From Terriglobia bacterium (lineage in GTDB: Bacteria > Acidobacteriota > Terriglobia > Bryobacterales > UBA6623): 64,000 bases of DNA. This document shows, one piece after another, positions 646 through 51,192 of the stretch. How positions within the stretch are numbered: position 1 is the first letter of the stretch; each line of letters begins with the position of its first letter. The translations under genes and the position numbers were made by a program. The stretch lies in the NCBI GenBank assembly GCA_009841225.1, contig VXMF01000056.1, forward strand, positions 51,125-115,124. The letters run 5' to 3'. The notes beneath the pieces are model-generated. The model searched no databases. It was not told the DNA's origin and saw nothing but the letters and a program-made list of their open reading frames with translations.

Positions 646-1022
646 CCGGCAGTTTCGCTTTGGAGTGCCCCCTCCACGCTGCCAAGATCAACAGGAGTCC
701 AGCGGCCAAGGCGGCTCGGCACTAGTCTGATCGAAGATGCGACGGGTCGATCCATGAACAGCTCACAGCGATTTCACTGGCGCAAGGTCGCTTGTCAGCA
801 ACTTTGGTTGGAAGCTCCCTCGAAAGCTCCGTTGCACATTTTGGGCATGGGTTAGGTCACGATCTCCGTACCATCCATCGAAGACCCTGCTCGATTCTGC
901 TGCGAAAGAAGTCTTGGGTTCCAAAGCGGTCATCGCGCGAGACCCGACAGCAGGAGAATCGGATTGATCACCCCCTCTGTTCATTCGATCTGCACGGGAC
1001 ATGCGCCGTAAATAGACAGAAA

Positions 1023-1046
1023 GGGGGAGCGGTTGCCCGCTCCCCC
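1023..1046 (-). terminator. Rho-independent terminator of cassette A
   Basis: There is a perfect 10-bp stem (GGGGGAGCGG on the plus strand, loop TTGC). On the minus strand it is followed by TTTCTGTCTATTT. It lies just past the stop codon of cassette A. The 24-nt hairpin is identical to the one after cassette B at 5656-5679. Confidence 0.85.
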
Positions 1047-1099
1047 CGGATGACCATGTCGCCACGCCACCTGTGGGTGGTCGACGACGCGGTGTGGTG

Positions 1100-4000
1100 C
1101 TACGGCAGATCTGCGCCGTATGCGCCGTTGATATTCCCCATGCTGTACCTGCCGAGCAAGCCCAGCGGGCCTTCTGCCGAAGATCCCACGAATGCTCCTT
1201 GGTGGTTGGTAATGCTCAAGGTGCCCGGGGTCACGCTGCGGTCCACGTAGTTGACGCTCACACTTCCAGATGTCTCCGCAAAGTCGACCAAGTCGTCATC
1301 TGCTGCAACCACCATCGCCACCGCGGGGAAGACGAGTTCCCGCACATCCTCGTCTGCATTCACGTAGAGGTCGCCGTTGGCATTCTGTAGATTGCTGATC
1401 ACCGTCTGGACCTGAGCGCCAATGGCGAGGTCTGTGCCGCCGGAATCTTGGAGTGCGTTCCACTCGACTCGCACGTCGACTTCGCCCTCGTAGCCTACGT
1501 TGCCTACGAACGCGACTGTCCTGCCTTGGTAATTCGCAGTGGCACCAGCCGGGTAGTTCGGCGAATTCCGCGAGGTGATCTTGGACGCGGACAGCGGGCT
1601 GTAAGCGAACGTGTCCATCTCTGCGTTATCCCAGCCGCCACTACGTTGCGCATCGCGGCTCCGCCTGACACGCCAAGCGCCGAAGCGCGTGTAGTCCGTA
1701 GTCCCGAACCAAGTCTTCACCTGCGAGTCCTTCTCCCCGAAGATATCGCCCGAACCCCTCGTCACGAAGGGCTGGTTGTTGTCCTCCCTCACGAAGAATC
1801 CGTCCTCGTCCGGATCCAGCGCCTCTTCCAAGTTGCTGGCACTGGACAGCGCGAGCAGGATATTGTCGATCTTGGACAGAGCGGTGTCCTTGTCGTAGCC
1901 TCCTCGTACGCTATGCGGTAGCCTTTCGGTGAAATCTGTGCCATCAGTACCTGGGTCTACGTGGGCTCGGTCCGGTTGGAACACGTACTCCAGCAGGGTC
2001 TGCTGCACCTCATGCCACAGGTCCCTCTGCTCATCCGGCACCAAGTCCGCGCTGATCAGAGTCGCCAGAGATTCGCGTAGCTGCTCGATCCTCGCCTTCG
2101 CCAAGGCGCGGTAGATGGCGCCGTTAGTGTTGTGCTCGGCAAACTCCTTGGCCTTCAGTGCAGTCAAGGCGATGTCGTAGGTCCGCGTCGCATCGTCCGT
2201 GGTCGTGTTGTCCTCGCTCCCATCGTCGAGACGGCCCCATGTCCATGTGGGATCGTTCAAGGTCGCCCCGGTGTTTACATCTCCACCGGCCTCCCAGCCG
2301 TACTTGGCAACTGTGATCTTGAGCATGCCGCTGCTCAGTTCGGTCTTGACGTAGTTGTTGGTATTGCCGTCATTTAAGTCAGCAGGTGCCGCTGACAGTA
2401 GCTTGGCCTCGATCGTAGTCACCTCGTCATCCGGCGTTGGCCGACCGACGGAGTCGTCCTCTGTCCTCATCGCGCCGTAGCCTGCTGCAAGGTAGTCGTT
2501 GCTGTCCGGGTTCTCCCCGACCGACCACGTGCCGACCGCTTCGCTTCCGGCTTGGTTGCCGCTTCCTCCCAAGAGTCTTCCGCTGAACGTCGCATCGACG
2601 GACTGCGGAATCGGGCTTCCCGCTCGACGCGCGAAAGTAACGCTCGCTCCTTCGCTAACCACAGTGGGATCTGACATGTCTCCACCCCAGACGCCGGCGT
2701 TAGTCATGGTCATTGTTGGCAGGACGATCGCCTCCACATCGCCGTACTGGTACTCCCAGGGGTCCCCACCGGCTGACGTCAGGCCTGTGATCAGTCCGCT
2801 GACTTTGCTGGTGGTGAACCGGACTTGAATGTCAATGTCTCCTGAGAAATGTGTTCCGGCACCGGAGATTGCGAGCGTCTTGCCCATGTACCTCGCAGTT
2901 CCCGTGGTTGTCTGCACGTAACGCGCCCGGGCCGTCTCGGCGGTGGTGCCGAACCCGAATGCGCCCAGCTCGCCCTTGCTGCCCTGCTGACCGTCTGTGG
3001 TGGCATCGTTATCGAAGACATGCTGCGCATCCGAAGTAGCGTTGTCGCGCTCCTTCTTCATGATCGCCCCGTAGCGGGTATTCCCGAGCATCCCGTAGGA
3101 CACCGACGCTTCCCATTTTGTGGCGTTGAAGATATCCGCCGCGGACTTGCCGTTCGTCGTCGCATTCTCAAGCACGCCGTCATCGGCTAGCGCAGTTCCG
3201 AGCAGATCCTCGGTTGACAATGCGGCGATCAGATCCTCGATTCGGCTCACTGCGTCGTCGTCGTCCGGTGAGACCGTGATTCCGGCGTCGCCGAATACAG
3301 CATCGAGCACCCCTTTGACATTCTTGCTGGCATTGCCGGTACCGGCGGTACCCCATTGTCGACTGACATGAAGGTCCCGGTCGGCTTCAGTTTCGAAGAC
3401 CGCGAGCAAGGCTTGGATATTGGCCTTGATCCCCTCCAGCTCCTCTTTGGCAGCGGCCACGAAGTTGGCACCCATCTGCTCCGACATGCCGTCCGGCAGC
3501 AGGTTGTTGAACGAGTACAGGTCGCCGCCCACTTTCAGCGCCGTCTTGGCCTCGTTCACGTCCTCGGTGTCGTCCTCGTCCCCGGGAATCGTCGGCAGTG
3601 CGCCGAGGCCGACCGTCTTGAAGTCCGTGTCGCCGTCAATGGCGACGTTGTCCAGCCGCGTGCCCATTAGGACTCCGTCCATCATCGTCACGCGGTAGGT
3701 CCCCTGCGACGTATCGATGTCTCCCATTCCGCTGGCGGGCAGTGTGGTGCCGTCGACGTCATACATGTCATCGGCCTCGCGCGTCATGGCCACCAAGCCC
3801 GTACCCTCGATCATCATCGACTCGGGCTCGAAGCGTGCCGACCAGATGCCGTCGGTGTACCACAGCGTGTACGTGTTGCCGTTGTCCGACATCACCTCGG
3901 AGCCGACTCCGACTCCCTCAGAGCCCAGCCACCAGGACATGTCCTCGGCCCGCACCAGCTCCACCGAGCCCTGCGTGCCCAAGGCCACCGTCACCATCAC

Positions 4001-4576
4001 CTTCTGGTACATGGCGCTCCACATGCCCTCGGAGTCCATCATCAGCGCGTACATGTTGCCGTTCGCCGCCGTGTAGACCGTGCCGTCCTTGACTTCCATC
4101 TCGCCGATCCACCAGGTCATGTCCTCGGCCTGCTTCACGGTCACCGTGCCGCCGAGCGCGCCCAGCATCACTTCCTGCATGGCCGCAACGTGCATCACGC
4201 CGATCGGAATGCCGTCCGGCGACAGCACCGCCGCGTAGACGTTGCCGTTCGCGGCCGTCACTGTCGTGTCGGCCGTGATCATCACCCACTCGCCGTTGAT
4301 CATCGCCGAGAAGGTCAGATCCTCGTTCCGGCGGACCTCGACCGTCGAGCCGGAGATCCCCAAGGGGATGCTCAGAGCCGGCGGCTGGACGTACTCGGCC
4401 ATGAACGTGCCGTCATCGCTTATCGTGACGGTGTAGGCGTTGCCGTTCTCGGCGGTGACGCTACCGGCACGACTAGCACAAGTATTGGAAGGCTGGGTGC
4501 TGACGGCACTTAGCCTGTGAACGCTCGGGTGACCAGCTACGACGCGGTTTGTGCGCAAGCTACGTAAGCGGGCCAA
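1100..4576 (-). CDS. Surface repeat/two-barrel protein, cassette A (leaderless paralogue)
   Basis: This 1158-codon ORF belongs to the five-member family in this window. From about residue 37 it has roughly three and a half repeats of about 42 residues (pattern ENGNxY...DGxW...LGxxG...ED), then two modules. Each module has an alpha-helical stretch (for example around GANFVAAAKEELEG) and a beta-rich domain containing TRYGA/TRFGA, an F-xG-xF/L-G-G 'GTWSV' strand pair and a final G-A-Y/F-G-A. Barrel I lies near 500-700 and barrel II near 960-1158. Unlike paralogues C-E there is no signal peptide or lipobox: the first 36 residues are unrelated basic sequence, and homology starts abruptly at VTAENGN. 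Cassette B starts at the same motif. It could be expressed without export, or be a silent copy. The function of the family is not established; the barrels recall bilobed TbpB-type surface lipoproteins. Confidence 0.75.
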   Translation of the reverse strand: MARLRSLRTNRVVAGHPSVHRLSAVSTQPSNTCASRAGSVTAENGNAYTVTISDDGTFMAEYVQPPALSIPLGISGSTVEVRRNEDLTFSAMINGEWVMITADTTVTAANGNVYAAVLSPDGIPIGVMHVAAMQEVMLGALGGTVTVKQAEDMTWWIGEMEVKDGTVYTAANGNMYALMMDSEGMWSAMYQKVMVTVALGTQGSVELVRAEDMSWWLGSEGVGVGSEVMSDNGNTYTLWYTDGIWSARFEPESMMIEGTGLVAMTREADDMYDVDGTTLPASGMGDIDTSQGTYRVTMMDGVLMGTRLDNVAIDGDTDFKTVGLGALPTIPGDEDDTEDVNEAKTALKVGGDLYSFNNLLPDGMSEQMGANFVAAAKEELEGIKANIQALLAVFETEADRDLHVSRQWGTAGTGNASKNVKGVLDAVFGDAGITVSPDDDDAVSRIEDLIAALSTEDLLGTALADDGVLENATTNGKSAADIFNATKWEASVSYGMLGNTRYGAIMKKERDNATSDAQHVFDNDATTDGQQGSKGELGAFGFGTTAETARARYVQTTTGTARYMGKTLAISGAGTHFSGDIDIQVRFTTSKVSGLITGLTSAGGDPWEYQYGDVEAIVLPTMTMTNAGVWGGDMSDPTVVSEGASVTFARRAGSPIPQSVDATFSGRLLGGSGNQAGSEAVGTWSVGENPDSNDYLAAGYGAMRTEDDSVGRPTPDDEVTTIEAKLLSAAPADLNDGNTNNYVKTELSSGMLKITVAKYGWEAGGDVNTGATLNDPTWTWGRLDDGSEDNTTTDDATRTYDIALTALKAKEFAEHNTNGAIYRALAKARIEQLRESLATLISADLVPDEQRDLWHEVQQTLLEYVFQPDRAHVDPGTDGTDFTERLPHSVRGGYDKDTALSKIDNILLALSSASNLEEALDPDEDGFFVREDNNQPFVTRGSGDIFGEKDSQVKTWFGTTDYTRFGAWRVRRSRDAQRSGGWDNAEMDTFAYSPLSASKITSRNSPNYPAGATANYQGRTVAFVGNVGYEGEVDVRVEWNALQDSGGTDLAIGAQVQTVISNLQNANGDLYVNADEDVRELVFPAVAMVVAADDDLVDFAETSGSVSVNYVDRSVTPGTLSITNHQGAFVGSSAEGPLGLLGRYSMGNINGAYGADLP

Positions 4577-4652
4577 GACAGCTAAGGCGGCCTCCGATCC
4601 GCCGAAGTTCGACTACTGGGGAGGGCAGTAAGCGGCTCCTCCTTAATTCGCT

Positions 4653-4826
4653 CTAGTCCACAACAGAGCGTGGCTCTTGACCACTCTGATCGAAGCTAAG
4701 AGGCATGACAATCGACTCGGTGCTAACCCGATGGATGATCGGACTTGCGGGCGTGCTGCGAAAGCCGAGCCGCTCATAGAGACGAGCTGTGGGAGTGCCG
4801 AGCCTGACCCTCAGGCTCACACACTC
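4653..4826 (-). pseudogene. 3' remnant of a GNAT-family acetyltransferase
   Basis: The C-terminal motif of GNAT N-acetyltransferases is readable (LRVRLGTPTARLYERLGF, the acetyl-CoA-site alpha4/beta6 region), followed by about 30 residues to the stop. Upstream of ECVSLR the sequence is unrelated, so the N-terminal two thirds are missing. It sits between cassettes A and B, consistent with repeated rearrangement here. Confidence 0.55.
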
Positions 4827-4861
4827 TTGAATTCGTGGGTACATTCGGTATGGTGAGATCG

Positions 4862-5050
4862 ATGAGCGCAGAACTGATCGGCATCCTGAGCGTCGGTGTG
4901 GCACTGGCCGGACTGGTCTTGCGACTGTCGGCGGGGATTGATGGGATAGAGGATCGGCTAGCTAGCGTCGAGCAGCGCTTGGCGCGAGTCGAAGGGCTGT
5001 TAGAAGGACTTGGCCTATCGGGTCGAGTCGTTCCAGCTACGGGAGACTGA
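4862..5050 (+). CDS. Small protein with N-terminal membrane helix and coiled coil
   Basis: The product has 62 residues from ATG 4862 (the ORF track start at 4835 adds nine unlikely residues). Residues 4-22 (LIGILSVGVALAGLVLRL) form one hydrophobic segment. Residues 27-50 (DRLASVEQRLARVEGLLEGL) have the heptad pattern of a coiled coil. Small proteins of this plan are common in bacteria without assigned function, and some accompany toxin or phage genes. The frame is well formed and ends in TGA. No partner is apparent, because its neighbours are a GNAT remnant and cassette B. Confidence 0.55.
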   Translation: MSAELIGILSVGVALAGLVLRLSAGIDGIEDRLASVEQRLARVEGLLEGLGLSGRVVPATGD

Positions 5051-5655
5051 GCACATCAGTGCAATTTCTGGTCCCATGAGGGATCCCGTCAACAGTCATT
5101 CCACCAAGGCGGACCCCGCAGCCGCGGAGAGTCGTCTGGAAGAATTCTTCAAGATCCAGACCTGCCACAGATGACAGCTAGCGGATTGCAGACCTAGCTA
5201 AGATTCGCCGTTGCTCGAGACCATAGGGAGACGGTCAGGTTTGCCTTGGAAGAGCTACAAAACATCCCGTTGATGTTGCCTTCCTCTCCAGTCTTGCCAA
5301 TGATCCGAACATATGCCACCTGACCATTGATAGGAACCATTTCCACGCTTTGCCCCAGAACAGCGAATTTCCAGCTTGCCTTTCTCGATAACAAGGGAAG
5401 TGGTCAAGCAGGACTCGTCCAATAACACTGACAAACGCGGTTTCACATTTCATCTGAGAACGCTAAGCAGCGAGTTTTCGTCATCGCCGCAAGCGACGAT
5501 CCCGGCCGGAATGGTGCTTCCCCTTCCCAGACTTTGCAAGACCATTTGGCGATCGAACTTCATTGTCAGAGTCAGAATCGCTCACAAGAGTAAACTCCTC
5601 CGTTGATTCCCCTTCCTCTGTCCATTCTCCGAAACCAACCCAACAATACGAAAAA
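5051..5655. other. 605-bp stretch without a supportable gene
   Basis: The GC content is lower than the surroundings (many A/T runs around 5230-5450). Short minus-strand ORFs (for example 5194-5394, containing VAYVRIIGKTGEEGNINGMF) look protein-like, but they are interrupted and match no family I recognise. They may be a decayed gene. Confidence 0.4.
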
Positions 5656-5679
5656 GGGGGAGCGGTTGCCCGCTCCCCC
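5656..5679 (-). terminator. Rho-independent terminator of cassette B
   Basis: The 10-bp GGGGGAGCGG stem with TTGC loop is the same as after cassette A. On the minus strand it is followed by TTTTTCG. It lies about 30 bp past the stop of cassette B. Confidence 0.9.
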
Positions 5680-5711
5680 TGGCAGGTTGATTCTGACGAA
5701 TCTTGCCGAGT

Positions 5712-8700
5712 CTAGGGGACCTCGACGCCGAACGCACCGTAGATGTCCACACCGAGGTCGTCGGTATGACTCCCGTCGGGTGCAACACGACCGATCGTGT
5801 CGTCGGTCAATGTCCACGTTCCGATCGCGCCGAGCGGTCCGTCCACTCCCTGGCCCACGAACAGCGCCTTGACGCTGTTGGTGCCAGTTGCGTCGATGTC
5901 GGCCCCGGCGAGGGCGCGGCGGTACCGGACACCCGTGACGCTCGCTTCGCCGTAGGGGATGTTGCCGTCAGCATCCGCTGTGCCAGCTTCGCCGACGATC
6001 ATGTTGTTGGAGAAATCTCCCTGTCCGCCCACGATGATGTTCATTGTGGGGAACACGATATCCATGACCTCGTTGCCTGCCGCGGTTGCTACCGTGACAT
6101 CCGCGCTGCCGCCCTGCGACAGTGGATCGCCCACTGCGGACTGCAGGCCGCTGATCGTCAGCGCCATCGTGCCAACCGTGGTACCCGCGTTCACGTCGGC
6201 GGGAGTCCCCCAGCTGACGTCCACGCTGGCGGTGCCGTAGAGGATCACCGTGTTCTGGAGCGCAATCGTCTCGCCCGTGTAGGTCGCGCTGCCGTCCTGC
6301 GGGAAGCTCAGGTTCTGCAGCGTGCCGACATTCGTCGAATCCAGCGGGCTGTAGGCATACGTGCCGGGTCCGCCGTGCGGTCCGCGAATTACGTTCGCCA
6401 CATTGCCGTCGTTCCTCCGAGCGCTCGTCGTGCTCTCGCGCCGCCAGAAGCCGAAGCGCGTGTAGTCCGTCGTCCCCATGGCCGAGAACACCTTGTACTC
6501 CCGCTCGCCTCTCAGGTTGGCAATGGTCCGAGTGCTGACCTCGTTCCGCCTATCCGCGGCATCGTACATGCGGAAGTCTGCTTCATTCTCCCGTGCGTCC
6601 GTGGCGGGGTCGTCGGCCGTGCCGCTATCGTAGTGATCGAAGATCCCCGTTCCGTCCGGATCGAGGGCATCCTCCAACTTGGCGTTGCTAGACAGCGCGT
6701 CCAAGGCGCGGTTGATCAGGTCAATCGCATCCGCTTCGGAATCCAGCGCGGTGTAGGCGTCGGTCAGCTTCAGCGGCAGCAGTCCGCCGAAGAAGTTGAA
6801 CTGCACCGCGTCCTGCACTCTCACCCAAGCCATCTCCTCGGCAGTTTGCGTGTCGGCCGAGTTGAGGCCCTGCAGGGTTGACAGCAGGTCGCGCTCTCTC
6901 GTGAGTGTTGAGACAACGCCATCGATCCACTTCGGACCGTTCATCGCAATCTGCGCGCCGTTGTTCCCCGCTAGCGCCGCCAGGTCCCACTTGGCGGTGA
7001 TCAGAGTCTCATCGGCAGCTTCGCCGAGCGCTTGGTAGGTCGGGGCAGTCGCGCCGTCGCGGCCGGCCCAGCCGTACTTGCGCTGCTTCACCGTCAGCAT
7101 CCCGTCCGCGATCGACACGCTGGTCAGGTTCTCCGCCGCGTTGGCTTCGACGTTCGTGAACAGCATCGCGGTCGCCGCCGAGCCGTCGTCTCCGGAAGGC
7201 ACTGGCCGGGTCGCGTCCGCGACGTGCACCACGCCGAAGCCGCCCGTGATATAGCCCGAGCCATCCGGATCTCCGACAGACCACGTGCCGTTGGCCTCGC
7301 TCCCCGCGTCAGCGCCCTGGCCCAGCAGGATGCCCTTGAAGGTATTCATTTGGTTGTTGACGGGCCGCAGCAGCCCCGAGTTGGCGGTGTAGAAGATCGC
7401 GGCGTTTTGGCCCGTGCGGTCGTCGGCGCCAGTGGTCCACGTGGCGTTCCTCAGCAGGTCCGCGTCGTCCAGCACGATCCGGTCCACGTCCGCGAAGTTG
7501 TGCTGCCAAGGCAGCCCGTCGGCGTCCTCCAGCCCGCTCACCACGCCACTGACCGAGTTGGCCTTGAAGCGCACCTGGACATCCATCATGCCCGAGTAGG
7601 TATCGCCAGACGCGGTCACAGCCCGGGTCCCACCCGAGTAGCTGGCAATCCCCGTCAGCGAGACCGCTGCCGCGTCCGCGGACCGCAGGGTCTGCTGCAT
7701 CGTCGAGTACGAGAACGCCCCGTACTCGCTCGTGCTCGCGCCGGCCTTGGCGTTTCCGGACGTCTTCCGCAGCGCCGTGCCGTAGCGCGTGCTGCCGGTC
7801 ATGCCCATCGTCGCCGAAGCGCTCCACATTACGCGGTTGAACGCATCCGCCGCCGCGCCGGCGCCCAGCGCCTGGCTCTCGAACACCCCGTCGCCGTCCT
7901 CGGCCGTCGCCGCGACAAAAGCGTCCTCGCTCGACAGCGCGTCGAGGATGTCGTCGATTTCGTTGAGGATGTCCTCCTCCCGTGGCGGGGTCATCCTGAC
8001 GGCCGAAGTGGGATCGGTTTCAGCATCGCTGTCGGTACCGAAGATGTTGTCCAGCGCCATTTCGAGCTTGGTCCACTGGCCCCCGAGAATCCCGGTCTCC
8101 CCTTCAAGGTTGCTCGGCTTGGTGTCGAGGGCGAGCAGCGCGGCCACGTCGGCTCGGATCTTTTCGATCGCCTTCACGGCCTCGGCCACGAAGTTCGCGC
8201 CCTCGTCGCTCGCCATGCCGCTGCCCAGCAGGTCTCCTATCGAGAACATGCCCTCGCCGTCGTCTTCGGTGCCCGTCGTGATAAGGTACGTCCCCGCCTC
8301 GTTGGCCACCGTATCGCCGTCGTTGGTGCTCAGTCTCGGAATGGGCAACATGTTGGTCACATAGTGGTCGGTGTCGGGGTCGATGGCCGCGTCAAACCGC
8401 GCTCCCATCAGCATCCCGTCTTCCATCCAAATGTGATACATGGCACCGTCCACGGTGACGTCGCCCACGCCAGTCTCGGGCAGGGTGCTGCCGTTGACGT
8501 CGTACATGTCATCGGCCTCGCGGGTCATGGCCACCAGGCCCGTGCCCTCGATCATCATCGACTCGGGCTCGAAGCGCGCTGTCCACACGCCGTCGGTGTA
8601 CCACAGCGTGTACGTGTTGCCGTTGTCCGACATCACCTCGCTGCCTACGCCGACGCCCTCAGAGCCTAGCCACCAGGACATGTCCTCGGCCCGCACCAGC

Positions 8701-9188
8701 TCGATCGAGCCCTGCGTGCCCAGCGCCACCATTGCCGTCACCTTCACGTAGGTGGCGGTCCAATCGACGTGGTCGTCGTGCTCCATACTCGTCAGCACGT
8801 AGTCGTTGCCGTTCGCCGCCGTGTAGACCGTGCCGCTCTCGACGTGCATCTCGCCGATCCACCAGGTCATGTCCTCGGCCTGGGTCAGCGTCACCGTGCC
8901 GCCGAGCTCGCCCAGCATCACTTCCACCATCGCCGCCACGTGCATCACGCCGATCGGAACGCCCTCCGGCGACAGCACCGCCGCGTAGACGTTGCCGTTC
9001 TCGGCCATCACTGTCGTGTCGGCCGTGATCATCATCCACTCGCCGTCAATCATCGCCGAGAAGGTAAGGTCTTCATTCCGGCGGACTTGGACTGACGAGC
9101 CCGAAATCCCCAGAGGGATGCTCAGCGCCGGCGGCTGGACGTACTCGGCCGTGAACATGCCGTCGTCGCTGATCATCACCGTGTACAT
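5712..9188 (-). CDS. Surface repeat/two-barrel protein, cassette B (leaderless paralogue)
   Basis: This 1158-codon ORF is a close paralogue of cassette A: both share PPALSIPLGISGS, EDMTWWIGEM and a long identical stretch around EDMSWWLGSEGVGVGSEV. The order is about three and a half repeats of 42 residues, helical segment I (near 330), barrel I (about 465-655), helical segment II (about 760) and barrel II (about 905-1158), ending GAFGVEVP. The frame is open upstream of ATG 9188 for only about 27 codons, through an AT-rich sequence with no other start codon. Recognisable homology begins at TVTAENGN, exactly where cassette A begins. There is no signal peptide, lipobox or clear ribosome-binding site. 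It is either a truncated gene, a cytoplasmic product, or a silent donor copy. A tyrosine integrase gene starts 370 bp from its 5' boundary. Confidence 0.75.
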   Translation of the reverse strand: MYTVMISDDGMFTAEYVQPPALSIPLGISGSSVQVRRNEDLTFSAMIDGEWMMITADTTVMAENGNVYAAVLSPEGVPIGVMHVAAMVEVMLGELGGTVTLTQAEDMTWWIGEMHVESGTVYTAANGNDYVLTSMEHDDHVDWTATYVKVTAMVALGTQGSIELVRAEDMSWWLGSEGVGVGSEVMSDNGNTYTLWYTDGVWTARFEPESMMIEGTGLVAMTREADDMYDVNGSTLPETGVGDVTVDGAMYHIWMEDGMLMGARFDAAIDPDTDHYVTNMLPIPRLSTNDGDTVANEAGTYLITTGTEDDGEGMFSIGDLLGSGMASDEGANFVAEAVKAIEKIRADVAALLALDTKPSNLEGETGILGGQWTKLEMALDNIFGTDSDAETDPTSAVRMTPPREEDILNEIDDILDALSSEDAFVAATAEDGDGVFESQALGAGAAADAFNRVMWSASATMGMTGSTRYGTALRKTSGNAKAGASTSEYGAFSYSTMQQTLRSADAAAVSLTGIASYSGGTRAVTASGDTYSGMMDVQVRFKANSVSGVVSGLEDADGLPWQHNFADVDRIVLDDADLLRNATWTTGADDRTGQNAAIFYTANSGLLRPVNNQMNTFKGILLGQGADAGSEANGTWSVGDPDGSGYITGGFGVVHVADATRPVPSGDDGSAATAMLFTNVEANAAENLTSVSIADGMLTVKQRKYGWAGRDGATAPTYQALGEAADETLITAKWDLAALAGNNGAQIAMNGPKWIDGVVSTLTRERDLLSTLQGLNSADTQTAEEMAWVRVQDAVQFNFFGGLLPLKLTDAYTALDSEADAIDLINRALDALSSNAKLEDALDPDGTGIFDHYDSGTADDPATDARENEADFRMYDAADRRNEVSTRTIANLRGEREYKVFSAMGTTDYTRFGFWRRESTTSARRNDGNVANVIRGPHGGPGTYAYSPLDSTNVGTLQNLSFPQDGSATYTGETIALQNTVILYGTASVDVSWGTPADVNAGTTVGTMALTISGLQSAVGDPLSQGGSADVTVATAAGNEVMDIVFPTMNIIVGGQGDFSNNMIVGEAGTADADGNIPYGEASVTGVRYRRALAGADIDATGTNSVKALFVGQGVDGPLGAIGTWTLTDDTIGRVAPDGSHTDDLGVDIYGAFGVEVP

Positions 9189-9559
9189 GTTTCCGTTCTC
9201 GGCGGTAACGGTGGATCTATGTTCGGCTGCAAGAAAACTATTTCTAAATATATAATGCTAAATTATTTACGAAATTCTCACAGTTCGAAGTCCATCACTG
9301 TGACATACAAAAAAGTGGTGACAAATCACTGCGTTATCTTCGAGTATCAGTGCCCCACTGCGTGCAGAACAGTGACCTTCAACGGGACGCTCCCAGCATT
9401 CGCGACGGCTGTTGCAGTGGGCCGATCGGCGAATAGTCGGATTCTGCGGTTCATCCCGATGGCCACCGCTCACCCAGCCGGCCACGAATCTCTGTACGGC
9501 GGCATCGAAATATGCTCTCGCCGACTGCAGGGCCGAGCCCCTAACAGCGAGGCAATCGT
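9189..9559. other. AT-rich boundary between cassette B and the integrase gene
   Basis: From about 9230 to 9330 the base composition drops sharply (TATTTCTAAATATATAATGC and similar), in contrast with GC-rich sequence on both sides. The junction with cassette B falls at about 9215. No gene, tRNA or clear attachment-site repeat is visible. It could hold the integrase promoter or a recombination site. Confidence 0.4.
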
Positions 9560-10726
9560 ATGAAGCGGCTGAGAGACGCTCGATATGTCCGCGGTCTCTT
9601 AGTTCCCGGAGAGCGAGTGCGGATGCACTCGCTCGGGGGCGGCCTGATCCTGCGTGTCGGCAAATCCGGCACGGGGTCGTGGGTCCAGCGTATTACCGTC
9701 AACGGCCGCCGCAGGGATATCGGGCTCGGGCCGACCCGCACGGTCTCTCTCGAGCAAGCGCGGGAATGGGCGAATCTCAACAAGTACAGGGTCCTGATCG
9801 GACATCCCGACGCGGTCGTTGGAATCGCTGAGATGCGGTGGCCACGCCCCTCGACCGTGCCCTACTTCGGCGAATTCGCCAGGTCGGTAGTCGAGTCCCG
9901 CCAGGACCTCAAGCGCGATGTGCAGCGCGCGCACTGGATGAGCACGTTCGAGAACCACTGTCGGTTGCTCTATCGCAAGCGAGTTAACGAGATCCGGCGA
10001 CAGGATGTCATCGCCGTGTTTGAGGAGAGAGTGGAAGGCGGCGAGATCCTCTGGACGGCGAAGCCCGCTGCCGCGAAGCTAGCGCTACAGCGTCTAGGCT
10101 ACGTGTTCACGGTCGCAATGGGCCGCGAAATCATTGCCGAGAATCCGGCGGATGAGGCACCCATCCGGGCCGCTTTGCCGCGGATCAGGGGCAACGGCAG
10201 GACCCGACACCACAAGGCAATCCCCCATACCGAGCTGGGCGCGTTTCTCGCCCGGCTGGACCGGTCGAGGACCGCCCATTCCGCGACCCTGTTTCTCGCT
10301 CTGACGGCGGTCAGACGGATGGAGGTTCTGGAGGCGGACTGGAGCGAGGTCGATATGGAGACGCAATCATGGACGATTCCGGCCGGTCGTGCGAAGACCA
10401 ATCGAGACCATGTCGTCCCATTAAGCAGAGCAGCGATCGGCGTTCTCGACCGAGCGCATGCACGGACAAGGGGGGCTGGGCGGATCTTCGCAATATCCCG
10501 AACGGCAGTGCAACGCGTATTCTCGGCTGGCGGCGGGACGGCTCACGGAGTCCGTAGCGCGTTCCGCTCTTGGTGCCAGGACGCGGGCAAGGTCCGCGAA
10601 GTCGCTGAACTGTGCCTCGGGCATCGGATCGGCAGTGCCGTCGAGCAAGCCTATGCGCGGTCGAGCCTGCTTGAACACCGTCGCGAACTCATGAGAGAGT
10701 GGGCCGAGTACCTCGGCCTGCAGTAG
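9560..10726 (+). CDS. Tyrosine recombinase/integrase (phage P4-like)
   Basis: The product has 388 residues. The N-terminal part (LGGGLILRVGKSGTGSWVQR) is the DUF4102-like arm-binding domain of P4-type integrases. The middle part is a SAM-like core-binding domain. The catalytic domain has the full set: Arg252 (TAVRRMEV), His329 and Arg332 (HGVRSAFRSW), His355 (LGHRIGS) and Tyr365 (EQAYARS). It should therefore be an active strand-exchange enzyme. Start ATG 9560 follows GCGAGG at suitable spacing. P4-type integrases usually lie beside a tRNA or other attachment site. None is visible here; the neighbour is instead the 5' boundary of cassette B. No excisionase or other phage gene follows. Confidence 0.9.
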   Translation: MKRLRDARYVRGLLVPGERVRMHSLGGGLILRVGKSGTGSWVQRITVNGRRRDIGLGPTRTVSLEQAREWANLNKYRVLIGHPDAVVGIAEMRWPRPSTVPYFGEFARSVVESRQDLKRDVQRAHWMSTFENHCRLLYRKRVNEIRRQDVIAVFEERVEGGEILWTAKPAAAKLALQRLGYVFTVAMGREIIAENPADEAPIRAALPRIRGNGRTRHHKAIPHTELGAFLARLDRSRTAHSATLFLALTAVRRMEVLEADWSEVDMETQSWTIPAGRAKTNRDHVVPLSRAAIGVLDRAHARTRGAGRIFAISRTAVQRVFSAGGGTAHGVRSAFRSWCQDAGKVREVAELCLGHRIGSAVEQAYARSSLLEHRRELMREWAEYLGLQ

Positions 10727-11308: not shown

Positions 11309-11995
11309 AGCTGTCGGGTGTCCGAAGGAGGGTACGTCCTTCGCCTTGAAGAACTCGCGAGAGCGCTGACGCTCCGGCTAACACCTACTATGTGGTTACA
11401 GGCGCAGGTCGGATCTCAGGGCAACAAGCAGCGAGGTGTAGCAACCACTCCCTAGCTGTGCTGCAATATCAGGTGAACACTGCTGTACAGCAACTGCAGC
11501 TTAGTCCGATTCAGGCTGCGAAGGGCCACCGGTTCCGTCGGTGACTTGCGCAGCACCGTTCGCAGGGTCTTCGTCGGTGTTTGCCGCAACTATGTGCGAT
11601 CAGCACGCGCCCGCCGCTCACGGAAGGGCTGATGCGTTCCGAGATTCAGGCTCGTCCGTTGGGAGCGGATCGCATCGGCGGAGCCAATCGCTGGCTGATG
11701 GTGCAATATATGGGAGCACGAGTGTTCTCCATGGTTCGAGGTAGGCAAGGGATATGACGATTCGTATCGTTCGCCGGCAAGCGCGAACTGGACTTCTCCC
11801 CAGAGGAAACCAGTCCAGGCCTGAGCTTGTCGGCGAGCAGCGGGTCAGCCTCGTGCGAGCAATACCGCATAGCACCCTTCGTCGGACTCTATTGGTCACA
11901 CTAGGCGCGGATGGCGGCAGCCTCGACCGAACGCAAGTCTCGAGCGTCTCGGCCACAGCCGGCTTCCGCGGACAGCAGGTTTCCGGATAGCCGCC
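11309..11995. other. 687-bp intergenic region with a hairpin and a 12-bp palindrome
   Basis: A 7-bp stem (CGAAGGA/TCCTTCG, 11323-11343) lies just after the DUF1801 gene and could be a weak terminator, but it has no T-run. TGCTGTACAGCA at 11481-11492 is a perfect 12-bp palindrome and a possible operator. I see no gene in it. Confidence 0.35.
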
Positions 11996-25241: not shown

Positions 25242-28200
25242 CTACGGGGTTAGATCCGCGCCGAAGGCTCCCTCGATTGTGCCCCACTCCCAGGTTCCAA
25301 CCACGGCGCGCGGCCCTGCCGGGTCGTAGCCGACGAACTTACCCGTGGTTGAGCCGGTGATGAAACTCCTCTCGCGGCGACTCGGGTCGAAATAGCGGAC
25401 TCGAACAATAGACGTGCCGCTGAACCCAATTCGGTCTAGCGTGTCGAGCTGGACGCTCGCTCCGTCGAAGATGAGTTGGCTGACCTCGAAGTTTGCGTCC
25501 AGCAACGGCCCGCCATTATCTGTCCTCGCTAGGTTTTCGATGACCGTGGTGACCGCTGAGCCATCCGGCCGATCGCTTCGCCAGCGAACACTGAGGCTGA
25601 TATCACCGTCGTAGAACGCTGTCCCGTCTGAGCTGACGTCCACGGCCAACGTGCGCCCGACATAGGTTGAGTTGAACCCCCTGGGGAAGTTCGGGTCGCC
25701 GGTCGAGAATATTGTTTGCCCAATCTGGCTATAGGCGAACACCCCGCTGCGCTCGTTCCCGGTCGCCGCCTCCACCGGCGAGAGGGCGTTCTCACGAACG
25801 TGCTTGGCCCACACGCCGAATCGGCCGTAGTCGGTGTTGTCGTACTTGACCTCGACTTCGTACTCGAACGCCGCGTAAATGTCCTCGAAGTCGTAGTCGC
25901 CGTTATCTAGGCTGGATTGGCTCAGGGTGCCGTCGAAAACGCCCCCGTCTTCGACCGCGTCACGGAAACTTGCGGGACTAGCTAGGGCTGCAAGGGCGTC
26001 CTGAAGAAGCTCGACGGCGTCCTCGTCGCGATCCGCGAGGCTTGACCCAGAGGGGTAGCGCGTGCCCAGCAGCACGCTGGTGCCCGTTCGACTGCCGAAG
26101 ATGTAGTCCTGCAGGGTTTGGTTCGCATCCTCCCACAGCCTCTCGCGGCTCTGCAGCGCGGTGCTCGTGCTCTGGTCGAAAATGTTGATGTAGATACTCA
26201 GCAGGCTGAGCTGCCGGTCCAGCTCTTCCTGCGCCTTCTGGAACAGCCGGGGGCCCACAATGATGGTCCCGCCGCTGGCAGACAGCTCGGCGGCGGGCAG
26301 CTCGATGCGGTCGTTGTCGGTGTCGCGCGCGTCGATCGTGATGTTCCCGTCACTATCTGGCCGGGCCACCAGCCAGGTCTCGGCCACCTCGCCGAGATCG
26401 GGCGTCGGGACCACCGGACGAACGGGCGGCGGGGGTCGCGTGGATGTTCCGTGGGAGTCTACGCCGAAGCCGCCCGCCAGGATCACGTTCCCTCGCGAGC
26501 TGAGGCTCCAAGTGCCGATAGCAGATTGCCCTGCGTCCGCTCCGCGGCCCACGAAGCGTCCTTCGAACTCTGAGCTCAGCGACCGAGGCGAAAACCGGAC
26601 CGCGAGCGGGTTGAACGAAACGGAGGCGGTGCCACTGGATGCCGGTTCGAACGAGCCGTCACTCGAATGGAGCCTGGCAGTGGGCAAGTGAATCGTGTCC
26701 ACTTCCTGCAGGGAGTAGCGCCACAGGCGGCCGGTCACGTCTTGCAGGTCGGTAACCAGGCCCGTGACCTGCCTGCTGGCAAACCGCACGCGCAGCTCGA
26801 TGTTGCCCGTGTAGATGGCTTGGCTGGACTCCCTGCTCGCTGCGACCGTCTCGCCAAGGTAGAGTGCCTCCCCGCTGCCCGGCAGATCTCGGGTCCGCGT
26901 GGGCTCCAAAGGGCTGTAGGCGAACGCGCCGATGCCTTCCGTGCCGGACGCGAAGTCTAGGGGACGCGAGGCCGCGCTCCGTTCCTGCTTGGTATACGCT
27001 CCGTAGCGTGTCGCGCCAGTCCAGCCGAATCCTAGGCGGGTAGCGCTCCGCACCGCGAAGTACGTGTCATCGCTCTCGTCGGCATCCACTAGCCTCGAGC
27101 GCGAAAAGATACCGCTGTCAAGTGATTCGCGAAAGGCAGATGCGCTGCCTAGCGCCGCCAGCACGTCTTCGATGTCCTCGATGAGCTCTTCGTAGTCAAT
27201 GGTGATGCCATTCCGCTCCTTGGGCGCGTCCTGGCCCAGCAGCGTTCTGCCCTCGCCCGGGAAGACGAGGCTCAGGTGATCGGCGATGCGGTCCCAGCGC
27301 CGTTCGATCGTCGTGGCCAGGCTCGGGGCCGATTCGGCGAGTCCGATCAAAACCTCGAGATCCTCGAGCTCGTTCGTGATCAGGGCGAGCGCTTCTTCTG
27401 CGAAGGTCACTTCGCGGTCGGCCCGGCCGTGCGTGAACAGCCCGTGCACCGAATACTCCAGACCGTTCACCTCGAGGATCGAGCCTTCGCGCGTGCTAGT
27501 GCCGCTGTCGCTGGTCAAGCGTACCCGTGGAGTGACGCCAACGTAAGTGACCAGCGCGTCAGTTGTCAGCGGCTCGCCGGGATCGGGCCTGCCGGGTGGA
27601 ACCGTCGTGCGCACGGCCCGCCAAGTACTGCCTGCGACCTGCGTCAGTACGTAGTTCGAACCGCCGACGGAGATCACGTCGCCGCTGCTTACCGAGGCGC
27701 CTTCGTACAGATAGGAGCCGTCCTCGACTTGGGTCAGGACGATGCTTCCGCCGGTGCCCGGCAGGACGACGTGAATCGGCATGGGCTGCGGCTCGGCTCG
27801 CCAGGCCCCGTCCACCAGCGTGAGCCGGTAGCGGTGCCCGTTGACGGTGGAGCGCACGACGTGGCCGCTGCGAATGGCATCGTCTCCCAGAGTCCACTGG
27901 CCGTTTTCTTGCCGAATCACTCGGATCACGCCGCCGTATGCCCCTAGGTGCACCGTCTCGGGCTCGGTCACGAAGCTTGCAGTCCAGCGCCCGTCTGTCC
28001 CGAGCGAGAACCTGTATCTTGCGCCAGCCGCCTCGCGAACTTCGCCGCTCCATAGCGGCGTGCCATTGAGTTCGAAGGTGCCCGCTTCCAGCCTGGTGAC
28101 CTGCACCGTCGTGCCACTCGCCCCCAGCGCCACCCGTTGAGGCTCCGATGGCACGAAATGTGCTTGCCACATACCGTCTGTGCCTAGGGCGAGTGTGTAG

Positions 28201-28826
28201 CGGTTGCCGTTGGCTGCCCGCACCACGTGGCCGCTGCGAAGCTCCGCATCGTTGAGCCAGAAGCTGCCGTTCTCGCGCATTTCGATGTCCACGGCGTCGC
28301 CGCTGATGCCGAGCGCGAGGCGCACAGGATCCGGCGCCACGAATTCCGCGCTCCAGCTACCACTGGTGCTGAGCTCCAGTTCGTAGCGGTTGCCGTTGCC
28401 GGCCGTGACTACGTGGCCGCTCTGCACGGCAGAGGAGCCGAGCTGGTAGGTGCCGTCCTCCTGGAGTTCCAGGGTGACTTCGTCGCCGCTGGTGCCTAGC
28501 TGCACGCGTGCAGGATCCGGCGAAACGAATGCGGCACTCCATGTGCCGCCGGACAGAGTCAGGCGGTAGGTGGCCGCGTTCTCGCCGCGAACGGTGCTGC
28601 CGCTGGTGAATGGCTGGCCGTTGTGCGTCCAGCCCCCGGCTTGGGTCGAGATCACGGTGGTGGCGCCACCCCGCTCGCCCAGTGTCACGACCACGACGGC
28701 GGGCACGAACGGTGGGGGAGCGGGAATCCTGGGGGCGGGTTCGCTCGCACAGCCGACCAAGACAGCCGAGACAAGCGCGGAGAGGACCACCCAGCACAAG
28801 GCGGCGGTTCTGGGGTTCCGATTCAC
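25242..28826 (-). CDS. Surface lipoprotein with 42-residue repeats and two TbpB-like barrels, paralogue C
   Basis: I place the start at GTG 28826, because AAGGAG lies 8 nt upstream and the product then opens with a lipoprotein signal ending AVLVGC, cysteine at residue 26 exactly as in paralogues D and E. The ORF-track start adds 41 unlikely residues. The product has 1194 residues. A proline-rich linker (PAPPPFVPA) is followed by six repeats of the NGNRYxLxL..DGxWxAxFVxP type (to about 400), helical segment I (EEALALITNELEDLEV), barrel I, helical segment II (QKAQEELDRQLSLLS) and barrel II, ending GAFGADLTP. The barrels have a YxGxxxAxS..IYTGNIELRVxF pattern and a GRFVGxG...AIGTWSL..GGFGV end, reminiscent of TbpB lobes. 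The ligand is unknown. Its promoter region is shared with the divergent paralogue D. Confidence 0.88.
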   Translation of the reverse strand: MNRNPRTAALCWVVLSALVSAVLVGCASEPAPRIPAPPPFVPAVVVVTLGERGGATTVISTQAGGWTHNGQPFTSGSTVRGENAATYRLTLSGGTWSAAFVSPDPARVQLGTSGDEVTLELQEDGTYQLGSSAVQSGHVVTAGNGNRYELELSTSGSWSAEFVAPDPVRLALGISGDAVDIEMRENGSFWLNDAELRSGHVVRAANGNRYTLALGTDGMWQAHFVPSEPQRVALGASGTTVQVTRLEAGTFELNGTPLWSGEVREAAGARYRFSLGTDGRWTASFVTEPETVHLGAYGGVIRVIRQENGQWTLGDDAIRSGHVVRSTVNGHRYRLTLVDGAWRAEPQPMPIHVVLPGTGGSIVLTQVEDGSYLYEGASVSSGDVISVGGSNYVLTQVAGSTWRAVRTTVPPGRPDPGEPLTTDALVTYVGVTPRVRLTSDSGTSTREGSILEVNGLEYSVHGLFTHGRADREVTFAEEALALITNELEDLEVLIGLAESAPSLATTIERRWDRIADHLSLVFPGEGRTLLGQDAPKERNGITIDYEELIEDIEDVLAALGSASAFRESLDSGIFSRSRLVDADESDDTYFAVRSATRLGFGWTGATRYGAYTKQERSAASRPLDFASGTEGIGAFAYSPLEPTRTRDLPGSGEALYLGETVAASRESSQAIYTGNIELRVRFASRQVTGLVTDLQDVTGRLWRYSLQEVDTIHLPTARLHSSDGSFEPASSGTASVSFNPLAVRFSPRSLSSEFEGRFVGRGADAGQSAIGTWSLSSRGNVILAGGFGVDSHGTSTRPPPPVRPVVPTPDLGEVAETWLVARPDSDGNITIDARDTDNDRIELPAAELSASGGTIIVGPRLFQKAQEELDRQLSLLSIYINIFDQSTSTALQSRERLWEDANQTLQDYIFGSRTGTSVLLGTRYPSGSSLADRDEDAVELLQDALAALASPASFRDAVEDGGVFDGTLSQSSLDNGDYDFEDIYAAFEYEVEVKYDNTDYGRFGVWAKHVRENALSPVEAATGNERSGVFAYSQIGQTIFSTGDPNFPRGFNSTYVGRTLAVDVSSDGTAFYDGDISLSVRWRSDRPDGSAVTTVIENLARTDNGGPLLDANFEVSQLIFDGASVQLDTLDRIGFSGTSIVRVRYFDPSRRERSFITGSTTGKFVGYDPAGPRAVVGTWEWGTIEGAFGADLTP

Positions 28827-29089
28827 TTGTGATGCTCCTTGATTTACTACAGCATAGTCTATTGCGTTCTTGCGACGGACTGTTGATGCCTCGCCGCACT
28901 CGAATTGAGCCCGAGCCTGCCCGCTGTTGCGTAAGATAGTTCCGGTCAATAGTGGCGAGCTGTGCTCCGGATCGGGCGGACGTATTCGCTAGTTTGGATG
29001 CCGGTGGTTCTGCGGAAAGGACAGAATTGGCGGCAATTCTTGACGGTGAGGGAGTTCGGATCAAAATTCGAGGCTTGTATTACATTCCC

Positions 29090-29127: not shown

Positions 29128-32100
29128 ATGATGCGTAAATGGAGCCTGCCTATTCTGGCGAGGGCCTGCCTCGCCGCATCAACCGCTGTGCTCTTTCTTT
29201 CCTGCGGCGGAGACTCGGCAGGACCGACAACTCCGCCGCCTCCGCCGCCATTCCAGCCCCAGACTGTTGTGGTGCAGCTGGGCACAAGGGGCGGTGCCAC
29301 CACACTCATCTCTACGCAGGCTGGCGGCTGGACGCGCAACGGCCAGCCCTTTACCACCGGTAGCACTGTAACGGGCGAGAATGCCGCCAGTTACCGCCTG
29401 ACTCTCTCCAACGGCAGGTGGACGGCCGAGTTCATCGCGCCCGATCCCGAACCACTCGTGCTCGGCGCGAGCGGCGACGCGGTACTGCTGCAGGCCCAAG
29501 AGGACGGCAGCTACGAGGTCGATGGCGAGCCCTTGGCAAGCGGCAGGGTGGTCGAGGCGGACAATGGCAACCAGTACCGGCTTGTGCGGGGCTCCGACGG
29601 TACTTGGATGGCGGAATACGTGCCCCCCGCGCCGCAGCTCGTGCATCTGGGCACGAGCGGCGAATCGCGCCAAGTGAGTCGACTTGAGGACGGCGGGTAC
29701 ATCGTGAACGGGGTGCCGCTGGCCCCAGGCTCGCTGATCACGACAGGTAATGGCAACCGCTATACGCTGACCCTCGGCGGTGATGGAATGTGGGCCGCGG
29801 TGTTTGTCGAATCCGACCCGCAGCGTCTACAACTTGGCACAAGCGGCGATGCGCCGTTGCTGATTTACCGCCAGGAAAACGGGACTTTCCGCTTGAATAA
29901 CGAACCATTGCTGGGCGGCCGGGTGGTTGAGGCCAGCAATGGCAATCGCTACCGCCTCACCTTGGGCCCGGATCGCTCGTGGCTAGCAACCTATATCCCC
30001 GAACCGGTCACGGTGCGGCTCGGAGGTACTGGCGGGACCGTCAGCTTGACTCCCAACGAAAACGGAACATGGCTACGGGGATCTGCCTCGTTCTCCAGCG
30101 GCGACAGGGTCACGGGCAGCAACGGATTTGAGTACGTCTTGACGCTTGGGTCTGACGGCTGGTTCGCAGAGCCGGTGCCGATGACCGTCGAGGTTGAGGT
30201 GGTTGGGTCGGATGCGCAAGCCTTCCAGCTGGCGCGGTTGGTAGACGGCACGTATCTCTACGACGGCGAGCCGGTCAATTCAGGCGACACGGTGACTGTG
30301 GGCGGAAGCACCTACAGGCTGCAGTTCGCCAACAATCGCTGGACCGCGCAATTCTTGCGAGGAGTAATCTTTGTGGAGTTGGGCGGGCCAAATGACCTCA
30401 TAGAGCTGACCCGGAATGCGGACGGCACCTACGAGTACGACGGCCGGCGCGTGCGCAGTGGCTCGATTCAGAGAAGTCCCAACACGGGCATACGCTACCG
30501 GCTGCGCTTGGCGGGCGGAGTTTGGACGGCGAGCGTGTATGTGCCCCCGACGGTCGACCCCGGTGGCGGCGACCCCGGTGTCGGAACGCCGCCGGTCGGG
30601 GCGGAGAACATTTTCGACGCATTGCCGGAGGAACTGATTGACTCTAACGGCGCGTTCAGTGCCAGTGATACTTCGACTGACGCCAACTATAGGATCCAGT
30701 CCGGCGTCAGCGGTACGAACGCCGATGGCGACCGGGTCGATTACGGCCGCTACAGCGGTAGCGGAAGCTACGAGGACGATACTTTCGTCGAAAGCGTGCT
30801 GCGGGCGATTGCCAGCATTCTTGAGGACATCGAGTCTCAGGGGCTGGCTGATGGGGACGACTCCCAGAGGTTTGTTGCTGGCGTGCTGATTGATGCCGGT
30901 TGGCCTAAGGTGGTGCAGGAGTTAAATGCGATCTTCGGTGGCGACCCGATATCGTTTACCAAGCCCGTGAGGGCGGGAGCGACGGATATCGACGAGGCCG
31001 TGGATGAGCTCGAGGATCTAAGGGAAGACCTCTCCGATGTCGCCAAGTTCAGAAGCAGGTTCATGACGCGGATCGACGCGGCAACTACTGCCGACGCTGA
31101 CGCCACCGCCGACACGATCTTCAACGCGAGAAAGCGGGTGCTGGCCTTGGGATCTTCAGCCAATACGCGCTTCGGCGTGATTTCCACGCTGCCTGACACT
31201 GCAACCGCCGTGACCGTGGCCGGTGGGGATGAGACGGTCGGTCGAGAACCCTTCGCATTCAGCCCGCTCTCGGCTACGCCGACGGCTGATCTGCCCAGTC
31301 GCGGAATCGCGCGCTACACCGGCAGGACCTGGGCAGTCGATGACGATCTAGCGCTGTACTCGGGCTCGATCGTATTGGAGGCCTCGATAGCGATCGAGCG
31401 GGTCACCGCGACGGTCTCGGACCTGCGCCGCAGCGACACCAACGCGAGTTGGATGCACAGCGGCAAGGCCGTGCGAGAGATCACGCTGCCCGAAATCAAT
31501 CGCGTCGAATTCCAAGACAACGGATCGTTTGCGAGGACCGGCGCTAACGCTAGGGTGGTCTATGACGAGTTCGGCGGCCTCTCGTTTGTTGATGTCGGTG
31601 CATCTGCCCTGAATGGGCAGTTTGTGGGAGGCAGCGATGGCCGGAGTCCGGGAGTAGCGGCAATGGGCACTTGGGAGGTCGGTGATCTACTGGATGGATC
31701 GTTCGGGGCAGAGCACATCAGGACGAATGCTGCGACACTTCCATCCCCTGTCTCTGCTGTAAATCACGGCTCGACCGGAATTGATACGGCCGCTGACACA
31801 CTGACGATCACCGGATTCAGTCACGTATACCCGCTCGCTGGCCTTGCAAGCTCGACCCGGACCATTGCCCCACTGACAGCGACGCTCCGGCTCGGGACCA
31901 CGTCTCTTACTCGCTTCGGGGCTTGGAAACTCGTGGACAATACAGACCCGGCGAGTCCGACGATGACAAGTGGGGTCTTCAACTATAGCCAGTTGAGGCC
32001 AACGGATTTCGGCACCAATTTTCGCCCGCTCAGGGGAATTGCTCAATACGCTGGTCGGACAGTGGCGGTTGATTCCGACGGCGATCTGTACAACGGGAGC

Positions 32101-49890: not shown

Positions 49891-50217
49891 ATGGTCTGGC
49901 GTGTTGAGACGCTGAACGACGCGGTGGACAGGGAGTTCGACGCGCTGCCCGCGGACATCCGGGCGCGGTTTGCGCGCACTTGCCAGTTGATTGCCACGGT
50001 TGGCTTGGAGCAAATGGGTACACCACATGTCAGGCACGTGACCGGTCCGCTGTGGGAAATGCGCCTCGCGGGTCGGGATGGGATTGCCCGGGCGCTCTAT
50101 GTCGCCGCAGCGGAGCGGCGGGTCGTTGTGGTCCGCGTGTTCGTGAAGAAGACCCGTCGCACGCCAAGCCGGGAGATTGAGACGGCGCTGCGGCGCGCGA
50201 GGGAGGTATTGCGATGA
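49891..50217 (+). CDS. RelE-superfamily toxin, phage Gp49/HigB type
   Basis: The product has 108 residues from ATG 49891; the ORF-track ATG at 49873 lies within the promoter. The fold is recognisable by FDALPADIRARFARTCQLI, PHVRHVTGPLWEMRLAGRDGIARALYVAA and VVVVRVFVKKTRRTP. This PF05973-type family cleaves mRNA at the ribosome. It overlaps the antitoxin gene by 4 bp (ATGA), with the toxin first as in higBA. The sequence is intact. Confidence 0.88.
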   Translation: MVWRVETLNDAVDREFDALPADIRARFARTCQLIATVGLEQMGTPHVRHVTGPLWEMRLAGRDGIARALYVAAAERRVVVVRVFVKKTRRTPSREIETALRRAREVLR

Positions 50218-50492
50218 CAAAGGTTGCTGAACTGCACGAGCGGTGGAGCCGGGACGCTGACTATCGCGAGGCGTATGAGCGGCTAGGACCGGAATTCGAG
50301 GTGGCGCGTGCACTGATCGAGGCGCGGACGCGCGCGGGGTTCACCCAGGCGGAGTTGGCGGTTCGGATGGAGACGACACAGTCGGCGGTGGCGCGGATGG
50401 AGAGCGGACGGGTGCCGCCGTCGATGCGGACGCTGGCGAAGTTCGCGCGAGCGACGGGTACTCGTTTGCGAATCAGCTTCGAGCAGGGGTGA
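50214..50492 (+). CDS. XRE-family antitoxin (HigA-like)
   Basis: The 92-residue helix-turn-helix protein has RAGFTQAELAVRMETTQSAVARMESGRVPPSMRTLAKFARATG, the full XRE domain, preceded by a short N-terminal arm (WSRDADYREAYERLGPEFEVARALIEA) typical of the Gp49-partner antitoxins. It is co-translated with the toxin by a 4-bp overlap and is the likely repressor at the palindrome in their promoter. Confidence 0.9.
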   Translation: MTKVAELHERWSRDADYREAYERLGPEFEVARALIEARTRAGFTQAELAVRMETTQSAVARMESGRVPPSMRTLAKFARATGTRLRISFEQG

Positions 50493-50648
50493 GGCGGACT
50501 TGAGGCAGGAGGACAGAAGCCTGCAGCGCTCGGAAATGCGGCGTGTACCGCGGTTTATCTGACAGTCGCTGTACCGCGACGCTCGCGGACCCGCTACCCC
50601 CTGCCCCCGCCCCGTCTCGTCCAAGCGATGCTCCGAGCCACGAGCAAC

Positions 50649-50900: not shown

Positions 50901-50923
50901 TTCGATTTCTCCCGCGTCCTTCG

Positions 50924-51118: not shown

Positions 51119-51192
51119 CGATTGGGACGACGAGGTTGCGGACCGCCTTGATCAACAACCAGGTGGCGCAGCTTCAGTCAAAGTACTGCGCG

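Follow-up and report, generated by a model that had tools for sequence, protein, structure and literature searches.

A P4-type integrase at the junction of silent lipoprotein cassettes in an Acidobacteriota genome: a candidate surface-switching locus

The window, that is, the whole stretch of 64,000 nucleotides analysed here, makes up the right-hand end of contig C24 (115 kb) and carries a tyrosine integrase gene beside a headless copy of a large surface-lipoprotein gene (Table 1). The integrase matched Arm-DNA-bind_3, Phage_int_M and Phage_integrase in Pfam, each above the cut-off, and phrog_1 integrase in PHROGs (E 1e-40). Comparison of five species, namely this genome and those designated G001, G003, G005 and G010, gave 85-94% identity among the integrases, with R252, H329, R332, H355 and Y365 (the complete R, H-x-x-R, H and Y set) invariant in 5/5 orthologs; these matches and residues bear out a preliminary description of the region, which had named a catalytically complete P4-type integrase. 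The dN/dS ratio was 0.13-0.16 in comparisons of this genome, G003, G005 and G010 and higher, 0.17-0.28, in those with G001, and the gene is under purifying selection. Each genome holds one member of this clade, always sited at a cassette junction, so that the adjacency seen here recurs in the four other species. The interval 9189-10726 had been noted for the integrase; the gene occupies only its later part, and 9189-9559 is upstream sequence that comprises the margin of the lipoprotein gene and a conserved intergenic flank. Likewise, the 370 bp given as the distance to the neighbouring cassette agrees with the spacing of the two start codons (372 bp between ATG 9560 and ATG 9188), but the integrase lies about 350 bp from the junction of that cassette, because homology among cassettes continues past ATG 9188 and ends at about 9208-9212.

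The cassette that adjoins the integrase flank (cassette B) has neither a promoter nor a signal peptide. A complete copy of the same gene lies ~33 kb to the left on the same contig, in the orientation opposite to the silent cassettes, and its segment C24:27490-31018 is 83% identical to cassette B at the DNA level over 3.6 kb. Four headless copies were identified, all on the minus strand, with starts at C24:40163, 49036, 55582 (cassette A) and 60332 (cassette B), the last two being within the window. A promoter-like sequence was carried by the expression site only, and none was found in 4300-9700, which covers the upstream regions of cassettes A and B. One copy with promoter and signal and further copies with neither is the arrangement of an expression-site/silent-cassette system. 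All four headless copies begin at the same bases, CRTYACCGCCGARAAYGG, which are also present inside the complete copy, and from this junction they stay open in the same frame for 1118-1203 codons. Joining the 5′ end of the expression site to each of the four silent cassettes yields a single open frame of 1266-1351 aa (1266 aa with cassette A and 1312 aa with cassette B).

Table 1. Features of the locus; positions refer to the window unless preceded by C24, the 115-kb contig
Feature	Position	Strand	Remarks
Complete lipoprotein copy	C24:27048-30959, outside window	+	Lipobox LALGLAGC; promoter-like TTGACA-18-CATGAT with TG
Expression site (promoter, lipobox, first domain)	C24:26750-27490, outside window		Promoter-like sequence as above
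Silent cassette A	1100..4456	-	1118 codons open from junction
Cassette A terminator hairpin	1020..1049	-	30-bp match to 5653-5682
Cassette A junction	4436..4462	-	CGTCACCGCCGAGAACGGCAAC
S-flank upstream of cassette A	4459..4644	-	Common to silent cassettes at C24:40163 and 49036
Silent cassette B, headless surface-lipoprotein gene	5712..9206	-	1164 codons open from junction
Cassette B variable tail	5715..8453	-	Predicted TbpB/NHBA/fHbp-like beta-barrel lobes
Cassette B terminator hairpin	5655..5680	-	
Cassette B junction (putative recombination core)	9188..9212	-	CGTTACCGCCGAGAACGGAAAC; limit of homology to complete and silent copies
I-flank, conserved non-coding	9213..9559	+	Columns average 82% identity in an alignment of five species
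Tandem 14-bp AT-rich repeat, putative arm-type sites	9244..9271	+	Consensus CTAAATNATTTAYG x2
P4-type tyrosine integrase, catalytically complete	9560..10726	+	388 aa; Pfam, PHROGs, catalytic residues, dN/dS

Directly after the junction, the copies share a ~740-bp module; between copies of this genome, its identity is 77-95%. The module is followed by tails of ~900 aa, which are 29-40% identical between most types; the complete copy and cassette B belong to one type (78%). Cassette A matches the complete copy with 95% identity over its first ~740 bp and with about 30% amino acid identity over the rest. A near-identical terminator hairpin ends cassettes E, A, B, S1 and S3 and G003_C115, and a different hairpin ends the S2 cassette (type T2) and its G003 ortholog. 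An AAA ATPase gene is present between the silent cassettes in three copies with 73-88% mutual identity (C24:40450-45069 and 50050-51669). The preliminary description had suggested looking for shared sequence near 4480, 29.1 kb and 34.8 kb; the first of these sites shares the junction, but the other two do not. The genes at 25.2, 29.1 and 34.8 kb were considered as array members and rejected, as they are full-length paralogs with neither the shared junction nor the shared terminator hairpin, and those at 29.1 and 34.8 kb have their own lipoprotein signal. Two of these paralogs, 25242-28949 (-) and 34834-38400 (+), form a 3.6-kb inverted repeat with 69.5% identity, and the third (29128-32451) lies between its arms.

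With a junction-spanning probe, the truncated copies of the five species were all found to start at positions 149-157 of 401. The sequences upstream of them fall into non-homologous classes, namely the integrase flank (I-flank), the S-flank (three copies in this genome, 77-79% identical over 149-186 bp) and the flank of G003:C115, which would amount to no fewer than two, and possibly three, independent upstream contexts, since some may be old homologs diverged beyond recognition. Judged from these alignments, the junction is evidently no chance break. An imperfect inverted repeat of the form 7-7-7 (GTTACCG-CCGAGAA-CGGAAAC) could be traced at the junction, but was given no weight, being weak in other copies. 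Two assemblies break close to the junction: the integrase contig of G010 ends exactly 55 bp beyond it, these 55 bases being identical to the complete copy of G010, and the complete-copy contig of G005 stops 58 bp beyond it. Such ends are typical of a k-mer assembler where differing upstream sequences lead into one cassette start; in this set of one assembly per species they are the only hints of alternative orientations, and alone are no proof of inversion.

The stretch between the junction and the integrase had been described as AT-rich, and no other 60 bp of the 115-kb contig are in fact as rich in A+T as its positions 9231-9290 (77%). Among this genome, G003, G005 and G010, homology extends upstream of the junction by as much as 600 bp. 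In these four species, a tandem 14-bp repeat lies ~35 bp from the junction; it is intact in G003, nearly intact in G005 and G010, and degenerate in its first copy in this genome, and is absent from G001. Lambda-type integrases have arm sites, and by analogy we infer that the repeat is the putative binding place of the Arm-DNA-bind_3 domain. No further occurrence within one mismatch was found on the 115-kb contig, and no arm-like repeats were found beside the other silent copies, which counts against switching by the integrase.

A P4-type integrase with such a repeat at one side would also fit one end of an ordinary integrative element, and P4-type integrases usually belong to islands. Such an element may have attached in the lipoprotein gene, cut it and decayed, with the integrase as its remnant and the right-hand variable DNA as old cargo; the region to the right of the integrase does differ in size and content among species. 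We regard this history as distinctly unlikely. No tRNA was found within the window, as previously described, or in the surroundings of the junction, and a tRNA att pair was rejected on these grounds. An att pair at a tRNA outside the window, with the island ending there, had been named as the outcome that would refute an action on the cassettes, and none was found anywhere on the 115-kb contig. The tRNA-Pro called by ARAGORN at C24:39634-39722 lies inside lipoprotein coding sequence and was judged spurious. The two sides of the integrase have no direct repeat of at least 10 bp in common, a search of this genome with the flank 9195-9300 gave no second significant match, and neither a second att site nor a duplicate of the displaced 5′ half of the lipoprotein gene was found. 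The two marks of an integrative island at a tRNA, a tRNA at the integrase end and a paired att repeat, are thus both absent here. Moreover, the remaining silent copies are truncated at this same point with no integrase beside them, and the integrase is still under purifying selection. The statement that excisionase and phage structural genes are lacking was upheld for the neighbouring ORFs tested against PHROGs, among which the integrase was the sole match to a named phage function; the genes that mark a prophage are therefore absent from this set. A phage origin was also considered and rejected, as viral contigs contained neither a related integrase nor the junction motif.

The integrase and the I-flank are orthologous in all five species, and the lipoprotein region is rearranged between species. 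On the basis of one assembly per species, the cassette beside the integrase is of type T1 in this genome, T2 in G003 and T5 in G005; as aligned, the cassette type in this slot changes between species exactly at the junction. The T2 cassette of G003 is the ortholog of silent cassette S2 of this genome (C24:36553-40161; 79% aa identity over 970 aa and 80.6% DNA identity over 3.8 kb), which lies behind another flank, at a distance of 20 kb from the integrase. The dS of T2 (0.36) is near that of the integrase (0.43-0.46). T2 is headless in both species, with more than 1200 codons free of stops and a tail dN/dS of 0.35, which is not expected of a gene that is never expressed; together with the open frames and terminators, this value argues that the silent copies are maintained in a usable state. 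G001 has a degraded junction, a degraded arm repeat and a frameshift in the adjacent cassette, and the junction, the cassette and the constraint on the integrase seem to decay together. A coincidence, in which a repeat-rich lipoprotein gene duplicates and decays beside an unrelated integrase, would be in keeping with the rearrangement of the region and with the frequency of lipoprotein-family paralogs on the contig; we nevertheless consider it highly improbable, given that the silent copies still have over 1100 codons open, are under purifying selection, and have terminators and one common junction.

We give a little better than an even chance to the reading that the integrase serves as the dedicated recombinase of a locus that switches surface lipoproteins and is built of an expression site and silent cassettes. 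The expression site would be joined at the short core CRTYACCGCCGARAAYGG to one cassette at a time, while the silent cassettes, inverted and devoid of promoter and signal peptide, would each open with the core and mostly close with the same terminator. The cassettes do have a common site at their 5′ ends that is inverted relative to the expression site, and the complete copy on the plus strand and the silent copies on the minus strand are so oriented as to permit inversion. A crossover between the core of the expression site and an inverted silent core would invert the intervening DNA and thereby join a new cassette in frame to the promoter and signal. The integrase would bind the arm-type sites (Table 1) beside the core of the cassette that adjoins its own gene. 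We infer from the sequence that the integrase makes this crossover, that inversion is its product and that its purpose would be to vary a Slam-type surface lipoprotein.

The main alternative is that cassettes are exchanged in the same expression-site/silent-cassette system by RecA recombination or gene conversion through the ~740-bp module, the integrase being a bystander or only the maker of the truncations. This we hold to be possible, if somewhat unlikely. The module is 91-95% identical among copies of this genome whose tails are only 30-39% identical at the amino acid level, and it is more alike within a genome than between species; being so homogenised (95% between the complete copy and cassette A), it would serve RecA exchange as well. 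For T2, the tails have a dS of 0.36 and the modules one of 0.53, indicating that module and tail recombined separately. The alternative also agrees with the synonymous sites at the junction, which show no extra conservation relative to the rest of the module (0.74 versus about 0.78), a result that counts against switching by the integrase. However, RecA exchange leaves unexplained why silent copies with unrelated upstream sequences start at the same base and why five species have kept an intact, selected integrase at the same junction along with a conserved arm-like repeat. The earlier proposal that the recombinase could move or invert cassettes rather than integrate a phage gains much support from the recurrent junction, the change of cassette in the slot between species and the putative arm sites, but homologous recombination through the module may account for some or all of the swapping. 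Integrase-driven and RecA exchange can coexist, by analogy with the PsrA-dependent and PsrA-independent inversions of pneumococcus.

As to the product of the cassettes, their tails had no sequence match in Pfam, NCBIfam or PDB, and only the predicted fold was informative. The AlphaFold2 model of the cassette B tail was of moderate confidence (mean pLDDT 70), and its best Foldseek matches were TbpB (1.9e-7), NHBA (9e-6, TMt 0.72) and fHbp (3e-5), along with HphA; whole-protein TM-scores were low, so that the likeness concerns the barrel domains and not the full chain. One SlipAM (Slam-like) gene above the cut-off was present in this genome, compared with 0/14 control genomes. The lipobox and the predicted TbpB-like barrel would together place the protein among Slam-dependent surface lipoproteins of the TbpB kind. 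The cassettes resemble TbpB, NHBA and fHbp in predicted tail fold, in the lipobox of the complete copy and in the Slam-like SlipAM of the genome, and differ from them in the lack of Pfam or PDB sequence matches and in having helical inserts and an N-terminal repeat module.

Several known systems share parts of this anatomy. The integrase has the Arm-DNA-bind_3, Phage_int_M and Phage_integrase architecture of genomic-island P4-type integrases; unlike those, it is accompanied by no tRNA site, att pair or cargo, and lies beside cassette junctions in five species. In the R64 shufflon, the gene for Rci adjoins the last segment of the array, and segments flanked by sfx repeats alter the tip of PilV, a constant N-terminal part being followed by alternative C-terminal parts. 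A tyrosine recombinase beside a cassette array and the combination of constant N-terminal with alternative C-terminal parts are common to both, whereas here whole cassettes of ~3.5 kb with 900-aa variable tails are concerned. In mycoplasmas, silent vsa genes lack the N-terminus. The vpma locus of Mycoplasma agalactiae is a surface-lipoprotein cluster with a single promoter and recombination sites at the 5′ ends of its genes, in which Xer1 acts by inversion (PMC2268961). It is similar, as are vsa/HvsR of M. pulmonis and vsp of M. bovis, in its linked tyrosine recombinase, terminators after the genes and single promoter. The present locus differs from vpma in its P4-type integrase, a putative switching enzyme with an N-terminal arm-DNA-binding domain, in its non-mollicute host, and in the position of the junction, which falls within the coding sequence, downstream of the signal peptide and the first domain. 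At the cod locus of Streptococcus pneumoniae, expressed and silent hsdS genes are exchanged by inversion between inverted repeats, and inversions independent of PsrA occur as well (PMC7096588). One expressed copy, silent copies and a tyrosine recombinase gene within the locus are shared features, whereas the target there is a methyltransferase specificity gene, and the enzyme type and site sequences differ.

Our literature search found no paper on antigenic variation in Acidobacteriota. We judge it evenly balanced whether the locus is one of antigenic variation in this phylum, in which a tamed P4-type, arm-binding integrase of mobile-element origin would shuffle 3.5-kb TbpB-like cassettes behind one promoter. 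If so, a phylum of free-living type, not known for antigenic variation, would have a switch devoted to a large surface lipoprotein, and the locus would be an example of an island integrase turned resident DNA switch. The closest relatives are uncultured Bryobacterales, and the relatives found, which are MAGs of Bryobacterales, Terriglobia and Acidobacteriota, come from metagenomes, some apparently sponge-derived, as some isolate names suggest. If real, the switch would offer uncultured symbionts or sponge-associated bacteria a testable means of surface variation, directed against host immunity or phages.

A second recurrent breakpoint, which the core does not explain, lies at the boundary of module and tail (TGGATGCAAGACGG, equivalent to C24:28250), where three fragments with differing upstream sequences begin in three species (S1 of this genome at C24:34763, L097:4670 and L014:7577). 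Outside the window, a gene for an XerC/D-like recombinase (Phage_int_SAM_1 and Phage_integrase; C24:34864-35790, or L025:14864-15790, minus strand) ends ~100 bp upstream of the truncated cassette tail at C24:34765. Its closest relative, in G006, adjoins an additional copy of the 5′ end of the expression site, truncated at its promoter; that genome has two such ends (L097:7150-7516 and L096:1-314), one with the full promoter and one cut just downstream of the -10 region. The second breakpoint and the XerC-like recombinase, both of which weigh against switching by the integrase, show a history of the locus richer than the simple model.

To the right of the integrase, the DNA up to a conserved flank measures 0.15 kb in this genome and a few kb in relatives (variable segments at L012:1573-8800, L013:5452-7600, L014:5571-9120 and L011:4073-6436). 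The ORFs there, named only by reading them, are reverse-transcriptase/maturase-like, VapBC-like, NYN-like and DUF29-like, with duplicated DUF1801-like fragments. In L011, the DNA after the integrase is homologous to the intergenic region between cassettes A and B of this genome, which places that integrase within the array. A further site, 11348-11370, to the right of the DUF1801-like gene, holds 1.6-3 kb of extra DNA in L012 and L014 and almost none in this genome.
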